From Akkermansia muciniphila (GTDB taxonomy: Bacteria > Verrucomicrobiota > Verrucomicrobiia > Limisphaerales > BJHT01), in NCBI GenBank assembly GCA_945861535.1, contig CAMAUZ010000012.1, forward strand, positions 75,908-116,281: 40,374 bases of DNA, given 5' to 3'. Positions 26,287 to 39,860 of this stretch are shown here, in pieces. Each line of letters begins with the position of its first letter. Position 1 is the stretch's first letter. The notes beneath the pieces were generated by a model, which was given only the letters and a program-made list of their open reading frames with translations, had not been told where the DNA came from and ran no database searches. The position numbers and the translations under genes were made by a program.

Positions 26287-26973
26287 TCACGTCGTGCGAA
26301 TCCGGCGCGCGACGACTTCGATGGCGGCCTTGTTTTTCACCAGCATGTCGGCGGGGAGATAGCCGCGCCAGTTGGTGTTGGGGTACATCACGGTGCGGGG
26401 GCCGAGGACGGTGCCGGGGTTGAGGACGGAGTTGCAGCCGATGTCGGTGTGGTCGCCGAGGAGCGCGCCGAATTTGCGCAGGCCGGTGTCGAAGGGGACG
26501 CCGTCGAGTTCCACGGTGACGTTGCCGGGGACGAGCTTGACGTTGGAGATTTTCACGCCCGCGCCGAGGTGCGCCTTGTAACCGAGGATCGAGTCGCCGA
26601 CGTAGTTGAAGTGGGGAATCTGGGCGTTATTGAAAACGAGGGAGTTTTTCAGTTCGCAGGAGTTTCCGATGACGCAGTTGTTTCCGATGATGACGTGCTC
26701 GCGGATGTAGGCGTTGTGGCGGATCTCGCAGTTGCTCCCGATTATGGCGGGGCCTTTGATCATCACGCCGTCCTCGACGACGGTGCCCGCGCCGATGAAG
26801 ACTTGGTCGCCGATGTAGGCGCGGCCTTCGCAGCGGTTCCGCAGCTCGGGGCGGAGGTGGGTGGCGAGGTAGTCCTTGAGGCGCGCGAGCGCTTCCCAGG
26901 CGTACGTGCAGCCATCGAACAGCGCGGCGTGCTCCGTCTGGGCCAGATCGAAAAGGTCGCGGGGTGCGTACAT
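26287..26973 (-). CDS. Left-handed beta-helix (hexapeptide) sugar-nucleotide transferase-like protein
   Basis: The protein has 228 residues from the ATG at 26973. Hexapeptide repeats run from about residue 50 to 200 (IGDQVFIGAGTVVEDGVMIKG, then IGSNCEIRHNAYIREHVIIG and IGNNCVIGNSCELK). HFNYVGDSILGYKAHLGAG is almost the GlmU C-terminal acetyltransferase signature, and FGALLGDHTDIGCNSVLNPG also fits. It lacks the N-terminal uridylyltransferase domain of GlmU. It is therefore a stand-alone acyltransferase or pyrophosphorylase-like protein, possibly acting on a UDP-sugar for cell-envelope synthesis. Substrate cannot be assigned. It is divergent from the zinc-ribbon gene at 27392. Confidence 0.88.
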   Translation of the reverse strand: MYAPRDLFDLAQTEHAALFDGCTYAWEALARLKDYLATHLRPELRNRCEGRAYIGDQVFIGAGTVVEDGVMIKGPAIIGSNCEIRHNAYIREHVIIGNNCVIGNSCELKNSLVFNNAQIPHFNYVGDSILGYKAHLGAGVKISNVKLVPGNVTVELDGVPFDTGLRKFGALLGDHTDIGCNSVLNPGTVLGPRTVMYPNTNWRGYLPADMLVKNKAAIEVVARRIRTT

Positions 26974-27391: not shown

Positions 27392-27745
27392 ATGATCAAA
27401 ATGGGACTGGATGTTTTCAAGGCTGCCGGCGGGGAGCTTTTGCGCCTCCGCCGGTTGGCGTGCTCGAAGTGCGGGGCCGACAATGTCGCCGACGCGCGGG
27501 TGTGCGCCGCGTGCATGGAGGGCCTGTACGTGAAGTGCGCGGCGTGCGGGGAGGAAAATCTGCGGGCGCGGGCGCGGTGCCGGACCTGCGGGTTCTATCT
27601 GCGGCGGACGCTGGGCAAACGGCTAAGGAAGTGGGCGGCGACGCGGTCGGGCCGGTGGACGCTCGGGGTGCTGATCTTCCTCGCGTTGGCGTATGGCACG
27701 GTGAAGGGCGTCCAGTTGGTGATGCAGGTGGATGGTGGCGGGTAA
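27392..27745 (+). CDS. Double zinc-ribbon, single-TM protein (paralog of the gene at 31382)
   Basis: I chose the ATG at 27392 ([19 protein letters not shown]), giving 117 residues. Four CxxC pairs form two zinc ribbons: CSKC and CAAC, then CAAC and CRTC (about residues 25-67). The linker [20 protein letters not shown] joins them. A basic stretch follows ([12 protein letters not shown]), then one TM helix ([19 protein letters not shown]) near the C-terminus. It ends in GGG. The same arrangement and many identical residues occur in the protein at 31382, which lies inside the Tol operon. The hybrid kinase gene starts 77 bases downstream on the same strand, so the two may be cotranscribed. I know no named family for the full architecture. 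A membrane-tethered protein- or nucleic-acid-binding role is a guess. Confidence 0.78.
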
Positions 27746-27822: not shown

Positions 27823-30294
27823 ATGAAACTGGTGCCCTTCGAAATCCTCCTGATTGACGACATACCGGAATTGCATGTGCTGATTCAGGCGAGCCTGGAG
27901 CAGGCGGATGTGCGTTTTACCGATGCGTTCAACGGGCGCGACGGGCTGGACTGCGCGGGGGGCGGGCGGTGTGACTTGATCGTGCTGGATGTCGGGATGC
28001 CGGGGATGGACGGGTTCGAGGTGTTGCAGCGGCTGAAGGCGGACGCGGCGTTACGCGCGATTCCGGTGGTGATGCTGACGGGGGCCGACAACACCCAAGA
28101 CAAGGTGCGGGCGTTTGAACTGGGGGCGATTGATTTTGTCACGAAGCCGTTTGTGCCGGCGGAATTGCGGGCGCGCATTCTGTCGGTGCTGCGGAACAAG
28201 TCGCTGCAGGATCAGTTGGTGGAGTCGAACCGCGCGCTGGACACGGCGCGGCAGGCGGCGGAGGCGGCGACGCGGGCGAAGTCGCAGTTCCTGGCGAACA
28301 TGAGCCACGAGTTGCGCACGCCGATGAACGGCGTGATCGCGCTGGCGGGTCTGCTGCTGGACACGCCGCTGACGCGCGAGCAGCGCGAGATGGTGGAGAC
28401 GATGCGCGAGAGCGGCGAGACGCTGCTCGAACAGATCAGCGACATCCTAGATTTCTCGAAGATCGAATCGGGGCGCATGGAACTGGAGCAGGAGCCGCTG
28501 CAGTTGCGGCCGTGCGTGGAGCGGGCGCTGGATTTGCTCGCGCCCAAGGCGGCGGAGAAGGGGCTGAACCTGGCGTGCGAACTGGCGGCGGACGTGCCGG
28601 CGTGGGTGCTCGGGGATTATGTCCGCGTACGGCAGGTGCTGCTGAATCTGCTGGGCAATGCGATCAAGTTCACGGAGCGCGGCGAGATCGTGCTGGCGCT
28701 GCGGGTGATGCCGGCGGGGCCGGGCGCGCGGTGTGAGGTGGAGTTCACGGTGCGGGACACGGGCATCGGGATTGCGGCGGCGGCGCAGGGGCGGTTGTTT
28801 CAATCGTTCAGCCAGGTCGATGCCTCGACGACGCGGCGGTTTGGCGGGACGGGGCTGGGGTTGGCGATTTCCAAGAGTCTGGTGGAGTTGATGGGCGGTC
28901 GCATCTGGGCGGAGAGCCGCGAGGGCGAGGGCACGGCGATTCATTTCGTGCTGCCGTTGACGGCGACGAAACCCGAGGAGACGCCGGTGACGCCGGGTGT
29001 TGGCGCGGCGGCGGGCGCGGCACTGGCGGGCCGGCGGTTGTTGATCGCGAGCGACAATGCGACGAACCGGCGACTGCTCGCCGCGGGGGCGGCGGGACTG
29101 GGAATGCGCGTGGTCGAGGCGGTGGGACTGAGCGACGTGCTGGCGGCGGTGACGGCGGCGGAGGCGGAAGCGCCCGAGGTGGCGATCCTCGACGTGGACA
29201 TGCCGGACATGGCGCAGGCGCAGTTGTTGCATTTGATCCGGGCGTTTCCGGCGGGGCAGCGGCTGCCGTTGCTCGCGCTGGCGTATCGGGGAAAGAACGA
29301 GGCGGGGAGCGGTGCCGTGCGGTGGTGGACGGGAACGATTCACAAGCCGGTAAAGGAGGCGCAACTGGCGGCGGCGTTGGTGGAAGTGCTGACGGGCGTG
29401 AAGGCGGTGGACGCGGCCGGACCGCTGGCGGACGCGGTGATCGACCACGGGCTGGCGGCGGCGTTGCCGCTGCGCCTGCTGTTGGTGGATGACAATGTGA
29501 TCAACCAGAAGGTCGGCGTGCGCGTGCTGCGGCAGATGGGTTATGAAACGCGGGTGGCGGGTGGCGGCCCGGAGGCGCTGGCGCTGCTGGCGCGCGAGCG
29601 GTTCGACGTGGTGTTCATGGATGTGCAGATGCCGGAACTGGACGGTTTGGAAGTGACGCGGCGCATCCGGCAGACGGCGGGACCGACGACGCCGGTGATC
29701 ATTGCGATGACGGCGAACGCGTTGCCGGGCGATCGGGAGAAGTGTCTGGCGGCGGGGATGAACGATTATTTGAGCAAGCCCATCCGGCCGGAAACGGTGC
29801 AGGAAATGGTGCGGCGCTGGGGGCCGTTGGCGACGGATGGCGCGGTGCCCAAGGCGATGGCCGAGCCGGGCGGGGGTGCGCCGGTGGAGGTGAGACCGGC
29901 GGCGACACCCGTGACGCCCGCGAGCGAGATCGGGCCGGTGGACATGGCGCGGTTGGCGAATCTGACCGGGGGCGATGTCACGCAGGTGCGGGAATTTCTC
30001 GAGCTGTATCTGGAGCAAACTCCGGGGACGCTGGCGCGGATCAAGACGGCGTTGGCGGCGGGCAGCGCGCTCGAACTGCAACGCGTGGCGCATAACGCCG
30101 TCGGCGCGAGTGCGTCGTGCGGCATCGTGGGGATGGTGCCATTGATGCGCACGCTCGAGCGGTGCGGGCATACGGCGCGCTTCGACGGAGCCGCGGAGGC
30201 GCTGGCACAGGCGGAGGCGGAGTTCGGGCGGGTGGAGGAGTATGTTGAGCGCATGGAACGGGGTGAAGTTCGAGGGGCGAAGCTCCAAGCTTAA
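27823..30294 (+). CDS. Soluble hybrid histidine kinase, REC-HisKA-HATPase-REC-REC-HPt
   Basis: I chose the ATG at 27823 ([20 protein letters not shown]), giving 823 residues with no TM segment. An N-terminal receiver (phospho-acceptor D56 in [12 protein letters not shown]) serves as the input. HisKA has H162 in [16 protein letters not shown]. The HATPase has N, G1 and G2 boxes ([31 protein letters not shown]). The middle receiver (about 400-520) is degenerate: its acidic pair reads SDN where DDN is usual, but AILDVDMP is kept. The third receiver has D600 in [15 protein letters not shown]-terminal HPt domain carries H757 in [12 protein letters not shown]. The protein can therefore run a full phosphorelay internally and probably receives a signal by phosphorylation from another kinase. 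Its last five codons and stop lie in a dispersed repeat. Confidence 0.93.
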
Positions 30295-30627: not shown

Positions 30628-31392
30628 ATGGCCTCGCTCGAACGGGTCGCTTTTTCTGTGATGAATATCTCGCTGTTGTTGCTGGCCGCCGCGCCAAATC
30701 AGGTGGAGTTGCTGTACCTCTGGGAGCGGGCGACCCTCGAGGGCAAGGTGATCATTGTGCTGCTGGTGATCTTCTCGATGTTCGCGTGGTCGGTGATGGC
30801 CGCCAAGGGTCTGCAGATGCACCGGGCCGCGCAGTACAACGGTTTTTTCAGCAGTGAATTCCGCTCGCAGAAACAGGTGCTGGGAATTTTTGACCGACGC
30901 GTCCGGGTCGAGGGCTGTCCGTTGTTCGCGGTGTATCAGGAGGGCTGCGTGGAACTGGACAAGCGGTTGAAAAATCCCGGGGCTGAAGGACGCAAGAAGG
31001 CGGTGTCATTCAAGGCGGTTGAGCACATCAAGCGGTCGTTGGAGCGCGCGGTGGCGCAGGAGGCGTTGCGGTTGGAATCAGGGCTGATTTTGCTGGCGAT
31101 CGCGGTGAGCGGCGCGCCGTTTCTGGGATTGCTCGGGACCGTGTGGGGGGTGATGAGCGCGTTCAGTTACGTGGCGATGCAGGGGAAGGCGGACCTGGCG
31201 ACGATGGCTCCCGGGGTGGCGGCGGCGTTGATGACCACGGTGGCGGGATTGCTGGTGGCTATTCCGTCGATGTTCGGTTACAACTGGCTCGTTCACAACT
31301 TACGGGTGCTCACGGTGGAGCTGGATAATTTCGCCCAAGAGTTGGTGTCCAAGATCGAAACCGAGTATCTGAGGGACGACGATGCAACTTAA
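30628..31392 (+). CDS. tolQ: TolQ/ExbB-type proton channel subunit
   Basis: The protein has 254 residues from ATG 30628. ATG 30661 (MNISLLLLAAAPNQ) is an equally good start, and neither has a clear ribosome site. The first TM is at about 37-58 (VIIVLLVIFSMFAWSVMAAKG), then comes a long cytoplasmic loop, then two TMs. The signature GAPFLGLLGTVWGVMSAF and the following VAAALMTTVAGLLVAIPSMFGYNWL mark the MotA/TolQ/ExbB family. It forms the inner-membrane proton channel with the TolR-like protein at 31850. Its last 11 bases overlap the start of the zinc-ribbon gene, so the two are translationally coupled. The downstream TolB and Pal genes favour the Tol over the Exb assignment. Confidence 0.9.
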   Translation: MASLERVAFSVMNISLLLLAAAPNQVELLYLWERATLEGKVIIVLLVIFSMFAWSVMAAKGLQMHRAAQYNGFFSSEFRSQKQVLGIFDRRVRVEGCPLFAVYQEGCVELDKRLKNPGAEGRKKAVSFKAVEHIKRSLERAVAQEALRLESGLILLAIAVSGAPFLGLLGTVWGVMSAFSYVAMQGKADLATMAPGVAAALMTTVAGLLVAIPSMFGYNWLVHNLRVLTVELDNFAQELVSKIETEYLRDDDAT

Positions 31393-31840
31393 TGACTTTA
31401 AGATCAGCCGGCCGCGGTTCCGGGTGCCGGGGCACTTGGTGTGCGGGCAGTGTGGCGAGGCGAATGCCGATGAGGCGCGGGTCTGTCAGGGTTGTGGGCA
31501 GGGTTTGTATGTGAATTGCGCGACGTGCGGGGCGGTGAATCTGCGTTCGCGTTCGTGCTGTCGCGGCTGTGGGCATCATCTGCGCACCACGCTTTTCCGG
31601 CGGTGCAAGCGGTGGTTGGTGGACCGGCACGGCGGGTTGGTGCTGAAAATTTTGCTGGTCTTGGGCGTATCCTACTTTTCCTCGAAGGTGATCATCATGG
31701 TTTCCCAGATGGGCGGCGGGCACTCTGAAGACGCGGGGGCGGTGACGGAACTGCCGGCGGATGGCTCGGTCGCCCCGATGCGACCGGTCGAGCCGGAGCC
31801 GGATCTGCCGCTGTTCAAGCCGGCGGGCAAGAAAAAGTAG
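31382..31840 (+). CDS. Double zinc-ribbon, single-TM protein embedded between TolQ and TolR
   Basis: The protein has 152 residues. The start ATG 31382 overlaps the tolQ end by 11 bases and has a GAGG about eight bases upstream. Four CxxC pairs (CGQC, CQGC, CATC, CRGC; about residues 20-63) form two zinc ribbons joined by QGLYVNCATCGAVNLRSRSC. A basic stretch (LRTTLFRRCKRWLVDR) precedes one TM (VLKILLVLGVSYFSSKVIIM). A 35-residue acidic/Pro-rich tail, absent from the 27392 paralog, follows. TolR begins nine bases after its stop. I know of no such component in described Tol systems. Position suggests an accessory subunit or cytoplasm-facing regulator of the TolQ-TolR motor. The zinc ribbons would lie in the cytoplasm if the positive-inside rule holds. 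Confidence 0.82.
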   Translation: MQLNDFKISRPRFRVPGHLVCGQCGEANADEARVCQGCGQGLYVNCATCGAVNLRSRSCCRGCGHHLRTTLFRRCKRWLVDRHGGLVLKILLVLGVSYFSSKVIIMVSQMGGGHSEDAGAVTELPADGSVAPMRPVEPEPDLPLFKPAGKKK

Positions 31841-31849
31841 GCATCCGCG

Positions 31850-32263
31850 ATGCGCCGGTTTTCCCAAAGAAATTCCCTCGTGACGTTGAGTGACATCAAC
31901 ATCACGCCGCTGCTCGATCTGGCGTTTGTGTTGCTGATCATTTTCGTGATCACCACGCCGCTGCTCGAACAGGGAATCAACTTGAAGCTGCCGGAGGGTG
32001 GCAAAGCGGACAAGGCGCTGACCAAGAATGATATCCGGACGGTCGAAGTCGGGGCGCGCGGGACTTATATGCTGGACGGACGGTTGGCGACCCTCGACCG
32101 ACTCGAGGCCGAACTGGTCAAAGCCTTCAAAGCCAATCCGGACACGGTCGTGTTCATTCGCGCGGACGAGAACGGCATCAACAAGGATACCTACGCGATC
32201 ATCGACCGCTGCCAGCGCAATGGCATCACACGTTTTTCCCTCCGAACCAAACCGGGACGCTGA
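31850..32263 (+). CDS. tolR: TolR/ExbD-type protein
   Basis: The protein has 137 residues, typical for the family. A single N-terminal TM carries the essential aspartate D23 in NITPLLDLAFVLLIIFVITTP, which couples proton flow through TolQ. The periplasmic domain follows (GINLKLPEGGKADKA..., then VFIRADENGINKDTYAIIDRCQRNGI). It sits nine bases after the zinc-ribbon gene and overlaps the next gene by one base (TGATG), indicating translational coupling. Confidence 0.93.
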   Translation: MRRFSQRNSLVTLSDINITPLLDLAFVLLIIFVITTPLLEQGINLKLPEGGKADKALTKNDIRTVEVGARGTYMLDGRLATLDRLEAELVKAFKANPDTVVFIRADENGINKDTYAIIDRCQRNGITRFSLRTKPGR

Positions 32264-33195
32264 TGAATCCTTTGCAGAAAAAATGCCTGCTGGCCTCCGG
32301 GGGATTGCACGGACTGTTGCTGTGCAGCGTCTTGTTCGGGGCCGCGTTTCGGTCGCGCGACAAAGAGGAGGTGGTGAAGACGGCGGAGTTTGTCCCCGCG
32401 GCGAACATTGAGAACTTGCTCCGAAGCAAAGCGGGGACGCCGCCAGCGCCCCGTCCACCCGCGCCGCTGGTCGAGGTAAAACCGGTGGTGGATCCGCCGC
32501 CGATTTCTTCCCCGCCCAAGCCCCCTGTCGCCGAGATCAAGACTCCCAAGCCAGCGCCCAAGCCCGCGCCGACGCCAGACTCGCCGCCGGTCACGAAGAA
32601 GGTTTCGCCTGTGCCCGTAAAGCTCACGGAAGTCGTCCGCCCGGTTCCCGGGACTGATACCATCCCGGTCGCTCCGGCGGCGACGAAATCGACGGTCAAG
32701 GTAACCCTCGAGAACCTCAAAGTCCGGGGCGGAGAGAAGTCGGCTACCAAACCCGCGACCAAGCCTGCCACCGGTCATCTGGCTCAAGCCCATCAAGTCC
32801 AGCACCCCGCGGTCGGTCGGGTGTCCGATGTGGTTGCCAATCTCCAAAGAAACCTCGCGCACTCGACGGCGGTCGGGACCAGCGAAGGCGCCAGCGACGA
32901 GGCGGCGGTCGATTACGGCTTGCTCGTGGTGGCGCTGTACCAAAACGCGTGGATCGTCCCGCAGGATGTGGTGGACTCAGGGGTCGTTGCGCAGGCCACC
33001 GTCACGATCGGACGGGACGGGCGGGTGACCGACGCGCGGCTGACCAAATCTTCCGGCAAGGCCGCGCTCGACAAGTCGATCCAGAGCGCCCTGCGCGGCG
33101 TGAAAGTGGTCGCGCCGTTCCCGCCGGCCGACAAAGAGAAAGAGCGGACGTTTATCATTGATTTCAACCTCAAAGCGAAAAGACTGCTCGGATGA
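32263..33195 (+). CDS. TonB/TolA-like energy-transducing protein
   Basis: The protein has 310 residues. A signal-anchor lies at about 9-30 (CLLASGGLHGLLLCSVLFGAAF). A long Pro/Lys-rich spacer follows at about 58-135 (PAPRPPAPLVEVKPVVDPPP and similar), suited to spanning the periplasm. The C-terminal domain of about 85 residues contains VVAQATVTIGRDGRVTDARL and AALDKSIQSALRGVKVVAPFPP, the TonB/TolA C-terminal pattern. Its place between TolR and TolB is that of tolA. The domain itself looks TonB-like, a common situation outside Proteobacteria, so I leave the symbol blank. It overlaps tolR by one base and tolB by four (ATGA). Confidence 0.88.
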   Translation: MNPLQKKCLLASGGLHGLLLCSVLFGAAFRSRDKEEVVKTAEFVPAANIENLLRSKAGTPPAPRPPAPLVEVKPVVDPPPISSPPKPPVAEIKTPKPAPKPAPTPDSPPVTKKVSPVPVKLTEVVRPVPGTDTIPVAPAATKSTVKVTLENLKVRGGEKSATKPATKPATGHLAQAHQVQHPAVGRVSDVVANLQRNLAHSTAVGTSEGASDEAAVDYGLLVVALYQNAWIVPQDVVDSGVVAQATVTIGRDGRVTDARLTKSSGKAALDKSIQSALRGVKVVAPFPPADKEKERTFIIDFNLKAKRLLG

Positions 33196-34367
33196 ATTTC
33201 GCTTTGTGCGCGCGTCGTTTGGCGCTCTCTGGATTGCTGCTGGCTCCCTATCTCGTGGTGATTCCGGGAGTTGCTGCAGCGCCAATTCAGAACGTAACGG
33301 TGTTCGGGCAATCCCGACTGACACCTATCGCCTTGACCGGCTTTCCCACAGAGGTCGCGTCGGTGCTTAAGTTCGATCTGGAATTAGCCGGTTTCAAAAT
33401 CACCGCGCCTGACACCGCGCTCTATACCCTCACGGGCAAGCTGAACGGCGGCGACCTCGAAGGCCGCCTGAGCAGCCGCAGCCAAACCGCCCTGCTCGCA
33501 CGGGCCTACAAAGGTTCCAACGTGCGCAGTCTGACTCATGCGCTGGCGGATGATGTCTTGCTGACACTGACCGGACAGAAGGGCATCGCGCAGACTAGGA
33601 TCGCCTTTAAGGCGGAACTAGAAAGGACCAGCGAGGTCTATGTCGCCGACTATGATGGTCACAATGCCATCCAGGTAACTCAGGATAATAACTTGATTGC
33701 CGCCCCTACCTGGGCGCCGGGGCGGGGGTTGCTCTATTATGTGTCCTATAAGCAGGATAACCCCGATATTTTCTACCATGACCTGGCCAGTGGTAAGCGC
33801 GTGGTCGTGGCGAGTTACTCTGGATTAAATACCAGCCCGGCCATTTCCTCCACCGGGAAACTAGCAATGGTACTGAGCAAGGGGGGCAGCCCGGATATTT
33901 ATGTGGCGGACCTGAACGGCGCCAACCTCAAGCAACTCACTTTCACGCCCGAGGAGGAGTCGTCCCCGTGCTGGTCGCCGGACGGACAGTGGATTTGCTA
34001 TGCGGCCAAGGTGAACGAACGTCGCTCGCTGATGAAGGTTTCGGTCAACGGCGGGGCATCCCGGCGGATTGCCATCGATGGCGCGATCAACCCCACCGAG
34101 CCGGATTGGTCGCCGGACGGCAAGTTCATCATCTTCACCTGTCAGCGCGCGGAGTTTGAACTTTGCCTGGTCCCCGCCGAGGGCGGCGTCGCGACCACCG
34201 TTGTGACGGGCGAGGATCCGTCTTGGGCGCCCAATTCCCGCAACGTCGTCTTTACGCGCCGCAAAAACGGGCGGCGATACCTGTCTTTACTTGACGTGTT
34301 TTCCAAACAGGTCAAAGATGTTGCCCAACTTTCGGGAAACTGTTCCCAGCCGAGTTGGGCCAAATAG
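33192..34367 (+). CDS. tolB: TolB periplasmic beta-propeller protein
   Basis: The protein has 391 residues with an N-terminal signal peptide (LALSGLLLAPYLVVIPGVAAA). An N-terminal alpha/beta domain (about 30-140) is followed by WD40-like PD40 propeller repeats. Each has the SPDGxxIxY pattern: SEVYVADYDGHNAIQVTQ, SPDIYVADLNGANLKQLTF, CWSPDGQWICYAAKV and DWSPDGKFIIFTCQR. TolB links the TolQ-R-A motor to Pal at the outer membrane during division. It starts within the end of the TonB/TolA-like gene and ends 25 bases before pal. Confidence 0.94.
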   Translation: MNFALCARRLALSGLLLAPYLVVIPGVAAAPIQNVTVFGQSRLTPIALTGFPTEVASVLKFDLELAGFKITAPDTALYTLTGKLNGGDLEGRLSSRSQTALLARAYKGSNVRSLTHALADDVLLTLTGQKGIAQTRIAFKAELERTSEVYVADYDGHNAIQVTQDNNLIAAPTWAPGRGLLYYVSYKQDNPDIFYHDLASGKRVVVASYSGLNTSPAISSTGKLAMVLSKGGSPDIYVADLNGANLKQLTFTPEEESSPCWSPDGQWICYAAKVNERRSLMKVSVNGGASRRIAIDGAINPTEPDWSPDGKFIIFTCQRAEFELCLVPAEGGVATTVVTGEDPSWAPNSRNVVFTRRKNGRRYLSLLDVFSKQVKDVAQLSGNCSQPSWAK

Positions 34368-34392: not shown

Positions 34393-35136
34393 ATGAAACG
34401 TTTTGATCTCCTGAAACTGTTGGCGGTGGGCTTGATTTTCACCGTGGCGACCACTGGTTGCCGCTCGCGCACGAAAGGTTTGACTCCCATTCCGGGTGGT
34501 GCCGGGAAGACCGGTCCCGGGATTGTGGACGATACTCCCCCCAAGGCCACCTACACGCCCAGCACCGTCTATACGCCGCCGACCACCGTCACACGTCCCC
34601 CGACGCCGACGCCGCCGCCGACCTACCCGAACAACGATGGCAACCGGGTTACACCCTTTCCGCCGACGGCAACGACTGACCTGCCTCCGGGCGGAAATCG
34701 GCCGCCGGGCGGTGAAAATACCGGACGCAATCCGACCGGGATTTCTGCAGCCGACCGGGGCGACTTTGAGGGAATGCTCAAAGATCCCGCGCTGTTCAAG
34801 AACAACACGGTCCTCTTTGACTTCGACAGTTCGGTCATCAAAGACAAGCAACGCAGCAAGATCGAGGCGGTCGCCGCCTTCTTGAAGACGACCACGTCCA
34901 ACAAGCTGCTCATCGAGGGCCACTGCGACGAGCGTGGGACCGAAGAATACAATCGTGCTCTGGGTGAGCGCCGGGCCCTGGCGGTTCGCGAGTATCTGGT
35001 GCGGTTGGGCATCCAAGCCTCCCGCATTCGTACGATCAGCTACGGCTTTGATCGCCCGGCGGATTCCGGCCACAATGAGGCGGCGTGGTCCAAGAACCGC
35101 CGCGGCGAGTTCATCGTCCTCATGCCCCGTCAGTAA
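34393..35136 (+). CDS. pal: Peptidoglycan-associated lipoprotein
   Basis: I chose the ATG at 34393 (MKRFDLLKLLAVGLIF), giving 247 residues. The signal peptide ends in a lipobox-like VATTGC with the lipid-bearing C23, although Thr at -3 is less usual. A Pro/Thr-rich linker (about 50-120) is longer than in enteric Pal. The OmpA-type peptidoglycan-binding domain contains NNTVLFDFDSSVIKD, IEGHCDERGTEEYNRALGER and RIRTISYGFDRP. It anchors the outer membrane to the wall and closes the Tol set. No Shine-Dalgarno precedes it; a T-rich run does. Confidence 0.94.
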   Translation: MKRFDLLKLLAVGLIFTVATTGCRSRTKGLTPIPGGAGKTGPGIVDDTPPKATYTPSTVYTPPTTVTRPPTPTPPPTYPNNDGNRVTPFPPTATTDLPPGGNRPPGGENTGRNPTGISAADRGDFEGMLKDPALFKNNTVLFDFDSSVIKDKQRSKIEAVAAFLKTTTSNKLLIEGHCDERGTEEYNRALGERRALAVREYLVRLGIQASRIRTISYGFDRPADSGHNEAAWSKNRRGEFIVLMPRQ

Positions 35137-35395: not shown

Positions 35396-35686
35396 ATGAC
35401 AACGATTTTTGCGGGCTTCATCGGGGGCTGGGAATTGGTGCTGATTCTCGCCGTGGTATTGATCCTGTTTGGTGCCAAGAAGCTGCCCGAGTTGGCACGC
35501 GGTTTGGGACAAGGTATCAAGGAGTTCAAAAAGGCTTCGACTGACATCACCAGTGAGTTACATCGGTCATTGGAGGAGCCCGTTTCGCCACCGCCGCCGC
35601 CGCAACGGCAGGTGCCCCAGCGGCCGGAGCCGGTTGCCAACGCTGGGACCGAGCCGCACAAGACGGATTCCTCCCCCAAGGCTTGA
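35396..35686 (+). CDS. tatA: TatA/TatB-type translocase subunit, second copy
   Basis: The protein has 96 residues and starts 18 bases after the first copy. The TM and amphipathic helices are nearly identical to the first copy at both protein and DNA level ([19 protein letters not shown] in both), so the pair arose by tandem duplication. The tail is longer and Pro-rich ([20 protein letters not shown]). The longer tail may give it a TatB-like role, which is an inference. tatC follows 21 bases later. Confidence 0.9.
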
Positions 35687-39783: not shown

Positions 39784-39860
39784 TGGTGCGCTCGGCGCGA
39801 TTCGAACGCGCGACCGGCGGATTAGAAATCCGCTGCTCTATCCAACTGAGCTACGAGCGC
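39784..39860 (-). tRNA. tRNA-Arg (anticodon UCU)
   Basis: On the minus strand the seven-base acceptor stem GCGCTCG/CGAGCGC pairs perfectly. The D arm is GCTCAGTTGGATAGAGC. The anticodon stem is GCGGA/TCCGC with loop TTTCTAA (anticodon TCT). The T arm is GCGCG-TTCGAAT-CGCGC. The discriminator A is followed by an encoded CCA (39784-39786). Total length is 77 bases with CCA. Confidence 0.96.

Follow-up and report, generated by a model that had tools for sequence, protein, structure and literature searches.

Descriptions of the Tol motor name, to our knowledge, just TolQ, TolR and TolA and have its force act outwards, and how Tol comes to the places where it works is not fully settled. The tol operon in the window (the whole stretch of 40,374 nucleotides analysed here, from a genome of the order Limisphaerales) raises the question of what a further membrane protein, carrying zinc ribbons and encoded between tolQ and tolR, might do at such a motor. 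The features on which the analysis rests are as follows, in window coordinates.

27392 to 27745, + strand: zinc-ribbon paralog of 117 residues with the same layout, outside the tol operon proper (43% identity; Pfam DZR 29.3 bits, over the cut-off)
27823 to 30294, + strand (start approximate; searched from 27793): hybrid histidine kinase with three receiver stretches and Hpt (Pfam)
30628 to 31392, + strand: tolQ, likely start ATG at 30628 (Pfam MotA_ExbB E 4.4e-30; NCBIfam tolQ E 1.4e-44, under the equivalog cut-off)
31382 to 31840, + strand: double zinc-ribbon protein of 152 residues with a single transmembrane (TM) helix, ATG start
31442 to 31570, + strand: two RanBP2-like zinc ribbons, residues 21-63 (C21/24/35/38 and C46/49/60/63; AlphaFold2 blocks of pLDDT 90-94)
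31577 to 31630, + strand: basic stretch before the TM helix, about residues 66-83 (from the sequence)
31637 to 31711, + strand: predicted TM helix, about residues 86-110 (hydropathy; AlphaFold2 helix 70-111)
31850 to 32263, + strand: tolR (Pfam ExbD E 2.4e-25; NCBIfam tolR E 2.4e-21, under the cut-off)
32263 to 33195, + strand: tolA-like gene with a TonB C-terminal fold (Pfam TonB C-terminal over the cut-off; best NCBIfam match tolA)
33192 to 34367, + strand: tolB (NCBIfam propeller_TolB E 1.4e-68, under the cut-off; Pfam PD40 repeats)
34393 to 35136, + strand (start approximate; searched from 34402): pal (NCBIfam Pal_lipo E 1.8e-37, over the cut-off; Pfam OmpA)

Profile searches show that tolQ, tolR, tolA, tolB and pal lie together, so that the operon reads tolQ, zinc-ribbon gene, tolR, tolA, tolB and pal, in this order. 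All five Tol-Pal products score over the cut-offs of their Pfam domains (MotA_ExbB, ExbD, TonB C-terminal, PD40 and OmpA); the NCBIfam equivalog cut-off is passed by Pal only, and the TolQ, TolR, TolA and TolB models are the best matches but remain below theirs. The first-pass annotation had described a protein with four CxxC pairs, a basic stretch and a single TM helix inside this operon, and the open reading frame, Pfam and AlphaFold2 results confirm it, with the pairs at C21/C24, C35/C38, C46/C49 and C60/C63. Its tight packing between the motor genes is also borne out by the coordinates, since tolQ ends at 31392, 11 bases inside the zinc-ribbon frame, and tolR starts at 31850, after a gap of 9 bases. 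No Rfam match was found between window positions 26500 and 36000. Elsewhere in the window, a TatA-like open reading frame was recognised by eye after pal (35396-35686), and a tRNA-Arg gene (anticodon tct) lies at 39784-39860 on the minus strand.

The same arrangement is found well beyond this genome. In a same-genus genome, the zinc-ribbon gene occupies the same place between tolQ and tolR with 86% identity, and a first search of 39 genomes (the present one included) detected such a protein between the two genes in 11. Among the 78 named loci with tolR from the best 80 TolQ matches, which partly come from the same genomes as the larger set below, 24 carry the gene; by their record titles, most of the named matches are assigned to Limisphaerales / Pedosphaera, Verrucomicrobia subdivision 3, and a few titles differ. 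We then sampled 196 genomes evenly from the order (Limisphaerales, judging by record titles), scoring 23 candidates per genome, at which depth weak copies may be missed, and the family profile matched at least 76 of them at E <= 1e-4. A ribbon unit lies between tolQ and tolR in 35 of the 132 genomes with both partners among the matches listed, and in 17 further genomes the gene is 10-54 bases from the one partner among the matches listed. Slot carriers thus amount to at least 52 of the 196 genomes, from 15 families and 25 genera. In a sample of 286 genomes of the class, at E <= 1e-12, 14 of the 15 matches fall in the same order and one in another, where no TolQ or TolR match was present in the 6 kb read; in a sample of 288 genomes of the phylum, the same threshold gave no match besides the present genome. 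Within Limisphaerales, the search of tolQ-tolR intervals that had been proposed for this locus shows that the gene recurs in that place across the order, and its linkage to the motor operon is real. A motor-linked role had been considered unlikely should close relatives lack the gene, and this is not what was found, as the nearest relative has it in the same slot.

We examined how specific this linkage is for the tolQ-tolR junction. In the 57 slots read, the gene starts (at the first start codon of its frame) no more than 58 bases from where tolQ ends, and in 40 of them the two overlap; the distance from the end of the last slot gene to tolR is -4 to 45 bases. Counting a multi-unit gene once, 54 of the 88 ribbon genes of the order (E <= 4e-9) are in this junction among the matches listed, and the other 34 are not beside any tolQ or tolR among the matches listed. 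A scan of 140 tolQ/tolR loci (713 kb, not all of them whole operons) gave no double-ribbon unit outside the slot, and its one extra match lies just after tolQ at a contig end. The present genome (7.9 Mb) holds four family copies, three of which are paralogs outside the operon; the copies are on contigs C12, C1 and C4, and six other TolQ-type places (of eight, among the matches listed) are on other contigs.

An alternative reading is that the protein belongs to a membrane-anchored zinc-ribbon family of the order with an unrelated role of its own, which lodged in a permissive junction and is kept there by operon expression. The concentration of the family in one junction and its absence from other positions of the 140 loci argue against this reading. 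On the other side, paralogs do exist without tol genes nearby (0 of 21 non-tol loci had any within the stretches read), presence is patchy in that 97 of the 132 genomes with both partners among the matches listed have no ribbon unit in the junction, and the same junction can take an unrelated gene: in four other loci of the order, it holds a 23S_rRNA_IVP-family gene recognised by Pfam. These four account for most of the long carrier-free intervals, since only 5 of 75 exceed 200 bases, the fifth being without a clear gene. No common partner gene was seen by eye beside the unlinked paralogs.

Two further explanations of the neighbourhood were rejected. In the same-genus genome, tolQ is likewise preceded by a homolog of the hybrid kinase (85% identity), which sits at a contig end. 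A link of the kinase with the second ribbon copy of the window is nevertheless not supported, because the best same-genus match to that copy (71% identity) is on another contig, with an ABC transporter and leucyl-tRNA synthetase after it. A mobile element was likewise dropped, as no match was found in phage or plasmid collections. One paralog, at L005 7979-8881 (minus strand), is long, with about 300 residues, and its part after the TM helix has no Pfam match at E <= 0.01.

Fingers of the RanBP2 type commonly bind protein or RNA. Their consensus is CxxCx3Nx6CxxC (PMC7154859, as given in the portion of the article consulted), and this spacing occurs in 69 of 79 first fingers and 49 of 79 second fingers of the family, with the window copy fitting in both. 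By their sequence, both ribbons of the window protein show the spacing of RanBP2-type fingers, a predicted binding fold. AlphaFold2, run with 17 sequences, predicted the ribbons with confidence (blocks of pLDDT 90-94 within residues 21-60) and, after them, a helix at 70-111, with a mean pLDDT of 75.1 and a pTM of 0.39 for the whole protein. Window residues 21-64, with the four CxxC motifs, cover positions 1-45 of the 45 in the Pfam DZR profile (PF12773), which is a whole-length match (E 7.5e-6), and the score of 26.4 bits is 0.9 under the family cut-off of 27.3; all 17 aligned relatives match DZR at E <= 0.01, and at that threshold the Pfam RanBP model picks up no more than 6 of the 17 members. 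A profile search of solved structures had DZANK1 as its first match (2.2e-7), with DNA polymerase D and ribosomal eL40 next. Foldseek gave no match to the window model at E <= 0.001; its weak matches (E 0.5-0.8) were to the Nup153 and RanBP2 fingers bound to Ran-GDP, at about 1 A over 26-27 residues, and to ZRANB2 bound to RNA, at 1.4 A. The ribbon cysteines of the family are predicted to bind zinc.

Since each half of the double ribbon resembles fingers that bind Ran-GDP, a small GTPase, the protein might by analogy dock an MglA-type small GTPase. GltJ of Myxococcus reportedly provides for MglA docking on its TolQR-like motor, and our literature searches found no description of a GltJ-MglA contact. 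We tested this candidate through Robl_LC7 (the MglB-type family) and rejected it, because carriers of the slot gene have Robl_LC7 less often than the others (13 of 52 versus 82 of 144; Fisher p 9e-5, not corrected for kinship and with genomes whose slot was unreadable counted as non-carriers). In addition, the present genome has no Robl_LC7 match at E <= 1e-5. Docking of such a GTPase is the least probable of the readings considered here, and we give it hardly any weight.

The ribbon part of the protein has been multiplied in some lineages. Two genomes of one family, G064 and G179, encode between tolQ and tolR a protein of 595 and 592 residues, respectively, with eight double ribbons (32 CxxC motifs) and one C-terminal TM helix:

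L101 870-2657, - strand: eight-unit protein of G064
L102 1211-2989, + strand: eight-unit protein of G179

Three other genomes of that family have three-unit proteins in the slot, again with one C-terminal TM helix, and Pfam detects eight DZR stretches in the G064 protein (125.1 bits) and three in one of the three-unit proteins. In two genomes, the slot holds two tandem one-unit genes instead. An AlphaFold model of the eight-unit protein, made with no alignment, was too poor for use (mean pLDDT 37.8).

A clear TM helix is present in 53 of the 57 slots; of the four without, two have none at all. A copy of 84 residues has ribbons and no TM helix. The side before the helix is the more basic in 45 of the 53 (mean charge +5.2 before versus +0.5 after), which by the positive-inside rule suggests that the ribbons face the cytoplasm. 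The tail after the helix is at most 18 residues long in 49 of the 53, and the window copy, with about 44 residues, is among the four with a longer one. In seven loci, two of them the eight-unit loci, the C-terminus PRLW follows right after the TM helix. Given this layout, with its basic N-terminal side and short tail, the ribbons are probably the working part of the protein.

These features bear on two other readings. The first-pass annotation had suggested a zinc- or redox-sensing gate of the proton channel, for which eight conserved cysteines encoded beside a proton motor could speak. However, spacing and predicted fold match structural zinc fingers, and as many as 32 CxxC motifs would be superfluous in a sensor. 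The gate was therefore dropped as the leading reading, and we now regard it as very unlikely; the RanBP2-type spacing, the presence of up to eight units and the short tails after the TM helix fit a binding arm better than a switch. The second reading is an assembly or stability factor, in which the TM helix and basic stretch would help TolQ and TolR assemble and the ribbons would be mainly a folding core. The gene order tolQ-factor-tolR, the frequent overlap with tolQ, the single TM helix and the short tail agree with this, whereas the many genomes that do without the gene do not, the eight-fold expansion of the ribbons would be left without a reason, and the TM sequence of the family is poorly conserved, more poorly than the ribbons. 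We consider an assembly factor improbable, if less so than a gate.

The slot copies show the marks of a maintained gene. All 52 aligned copies retain eight cysteines and one leucine, and the failure of the cysteine pairs to be conserved, which the annotation had named as evidence against a motor-linked role, did not occur; since copies were chosen by at least three CxxC motifs, this conservation is partly by construction, but against a hidden loss speaks that just one carrier-free interval above 200 bases lacks an identified gene. Between the window and its same-genus relative, dN/dS of the ribbon gene is 0.208, compared with 0.028 for tolQ, 0.041 for tolR, 0.152 for tolA, 0.077 for tolB and 0.171 for pal, which shows that the gene is under purifying selection, at a level near that of tolA and pal. 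The same place in a same-genus genome, the spread over 15 families and this selection (dN/dS 0.21) indicate that the gene is there by more than chance.

The gene also follows its motor. Distances between ribbon copies track TolQ-TolR distances (Mantel r 0.68, 0 of 2000 permutations), with r dropping to 0.30 for distant pairs, and the nearest TolQ-TolR neighbour is among the three nearest ribbon copies in 41 of 52 cases. Mapped onto a TolQ-TolR tree built from 125 loci, a set enriched for carriers, presence of the gene needs 14 changes, compared with a mean of 40 and a minimum of 30 after shuffling; equal-cost parsimony fits both a single early gain followed by repeated loss and multiple gains. 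Clustering on the tree and parallel divergence are further points against a gene merely lodged in the junction for an unrelated role. As a point in favour of that reading, no residue signature of carriers was found in TolQ or TolR, where the top column differences of 0.42 and 0.39 are within the null 95% points of 0.48 and 0.50 (60 shuffles). Because of the absences, the paralogs, the IVP-family gene in the slot, the lack of such a signature and the rarer MglB family, we leave an unrelated passenger a real share, although we hold it to be unlikely.

With the place and layout of the gene, its conservation, selection, co-inheritance with TolQ-TolR and repeat expansion all shown by computation, we favour, at a probability of about 0.52, a lineage-specific inner-membrane accessory or adaptor of Tol in Limisphaerales, whose cytoplasmic fingers would dock a putative partner to the motor. 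The product would be a bitopic inner-membrane protein: its N-terminal half, two RanBP2-like zinc fingers, would lie in the cytoplasm, and a basic stretch would lead into a single TM helix that in most copies leaves only a short tail in the periplasm. It would be made together with TolQ and TolR and may sit with or near their complex, where the fingers could dock a cytoplasmic partner (a protein, possibly RNA). Such docking might bring the Tol complex to a site, for example the division plane, or keep it there. A tentative further step, which we find possible but would not bet on, is that the protein is a true extra Tol subunit, a cytoplasmic arm of one to eight double ribbons through which the motor would receive positional or regulatory cues from within the cell, the unit number being adjusted from lineage to lineage. 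The earlier proposal that the protein works with or regulates the TolQ-TolR channel thus stands in part: the linkage is recurrent and slot-specific (52 of 196 genomes; none outside the slot in 140 loci), but 97 of 132 genomes lack the gene, and a physical link to the motor is something that we infer. A recurrent, selected and tethered zinc-finger gene in the motor operon suggests that one lineage added a cytoplasmic input to the Tol motor, and the gene offers a handle on how Tol reaches its sites of action.

A 2026 review presents the motor as TolQ5-TolR2 together with TolA, and neither "accessory" nor "additional subunit" appears in the portion of it available (PMC12905483); a survey of Tol operons does not mention zinc in the accessible part of its main text (PMC12204202). 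No description of a zinc-ribbon subunit of the TolQ-TolR motor or the Tol-Pal system was found among the papers listed by our searches of the open-access literature, so one may exist elsewhere; within that literature, the annotation was right that described Tol-Pal motors have no such subunit.

At the level of the domain, the window protein shares four CxxC pairs with Pfam DZR, which is a domain and not a system, whereas the DZR of the window is membrane-tethered and tied to a motor operon. With RanBP2-type fingers, the family shares the CxxCx3Nx6CxxC spacing and the short structural matches, but the G-D-W element before the first cysteine was not seen when the aligned copies were read by eye.

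At the level of the whole protein, ZitP of Caulobacter provides a precedent. In the sections of the two reports at hand, it combines an N-terminal zinc finger in the cytoplasm, which binds the polar organiser PopZ, and one TM helix with a link to envelope machinery, a layout predicted for the window protein as well (PMC5182065, PMC5182063). The single finger of ZitP, from zinc_ribbon_5, has the spacing CxxC-x19-CxxC, and a DUF3426 lies in the periplasm, whereas the window family has two fingers (up to sixteen), ten residues between CxxC pairs and little or no periplasmic part; with this different spacing and no zinc_ribbon_5 match in Pfam at E <= 1, the window protein is not a member of that group. 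We know of no zitP in a tol operon.

AgmX/GltJ of Myxococcus likewise has a zinc finger, according to the part of the ZitP report seen (PMC5182065), and another report, in its available portion, places AgmX as a potential integral membrane protein in the gliding machinery, which operates with a TolQR-like motor (PMC3169522). From the same partial sources, agmX is in a glt cluster apart from the motor genes, whereas the ribbon gene of the window is inside the motor operon. Of the Tol-Pal system itself, all five core genes are in the window, in order, and the window differs from that system by the extra zinc-ribbon membrane gene between tolQ and tolR.
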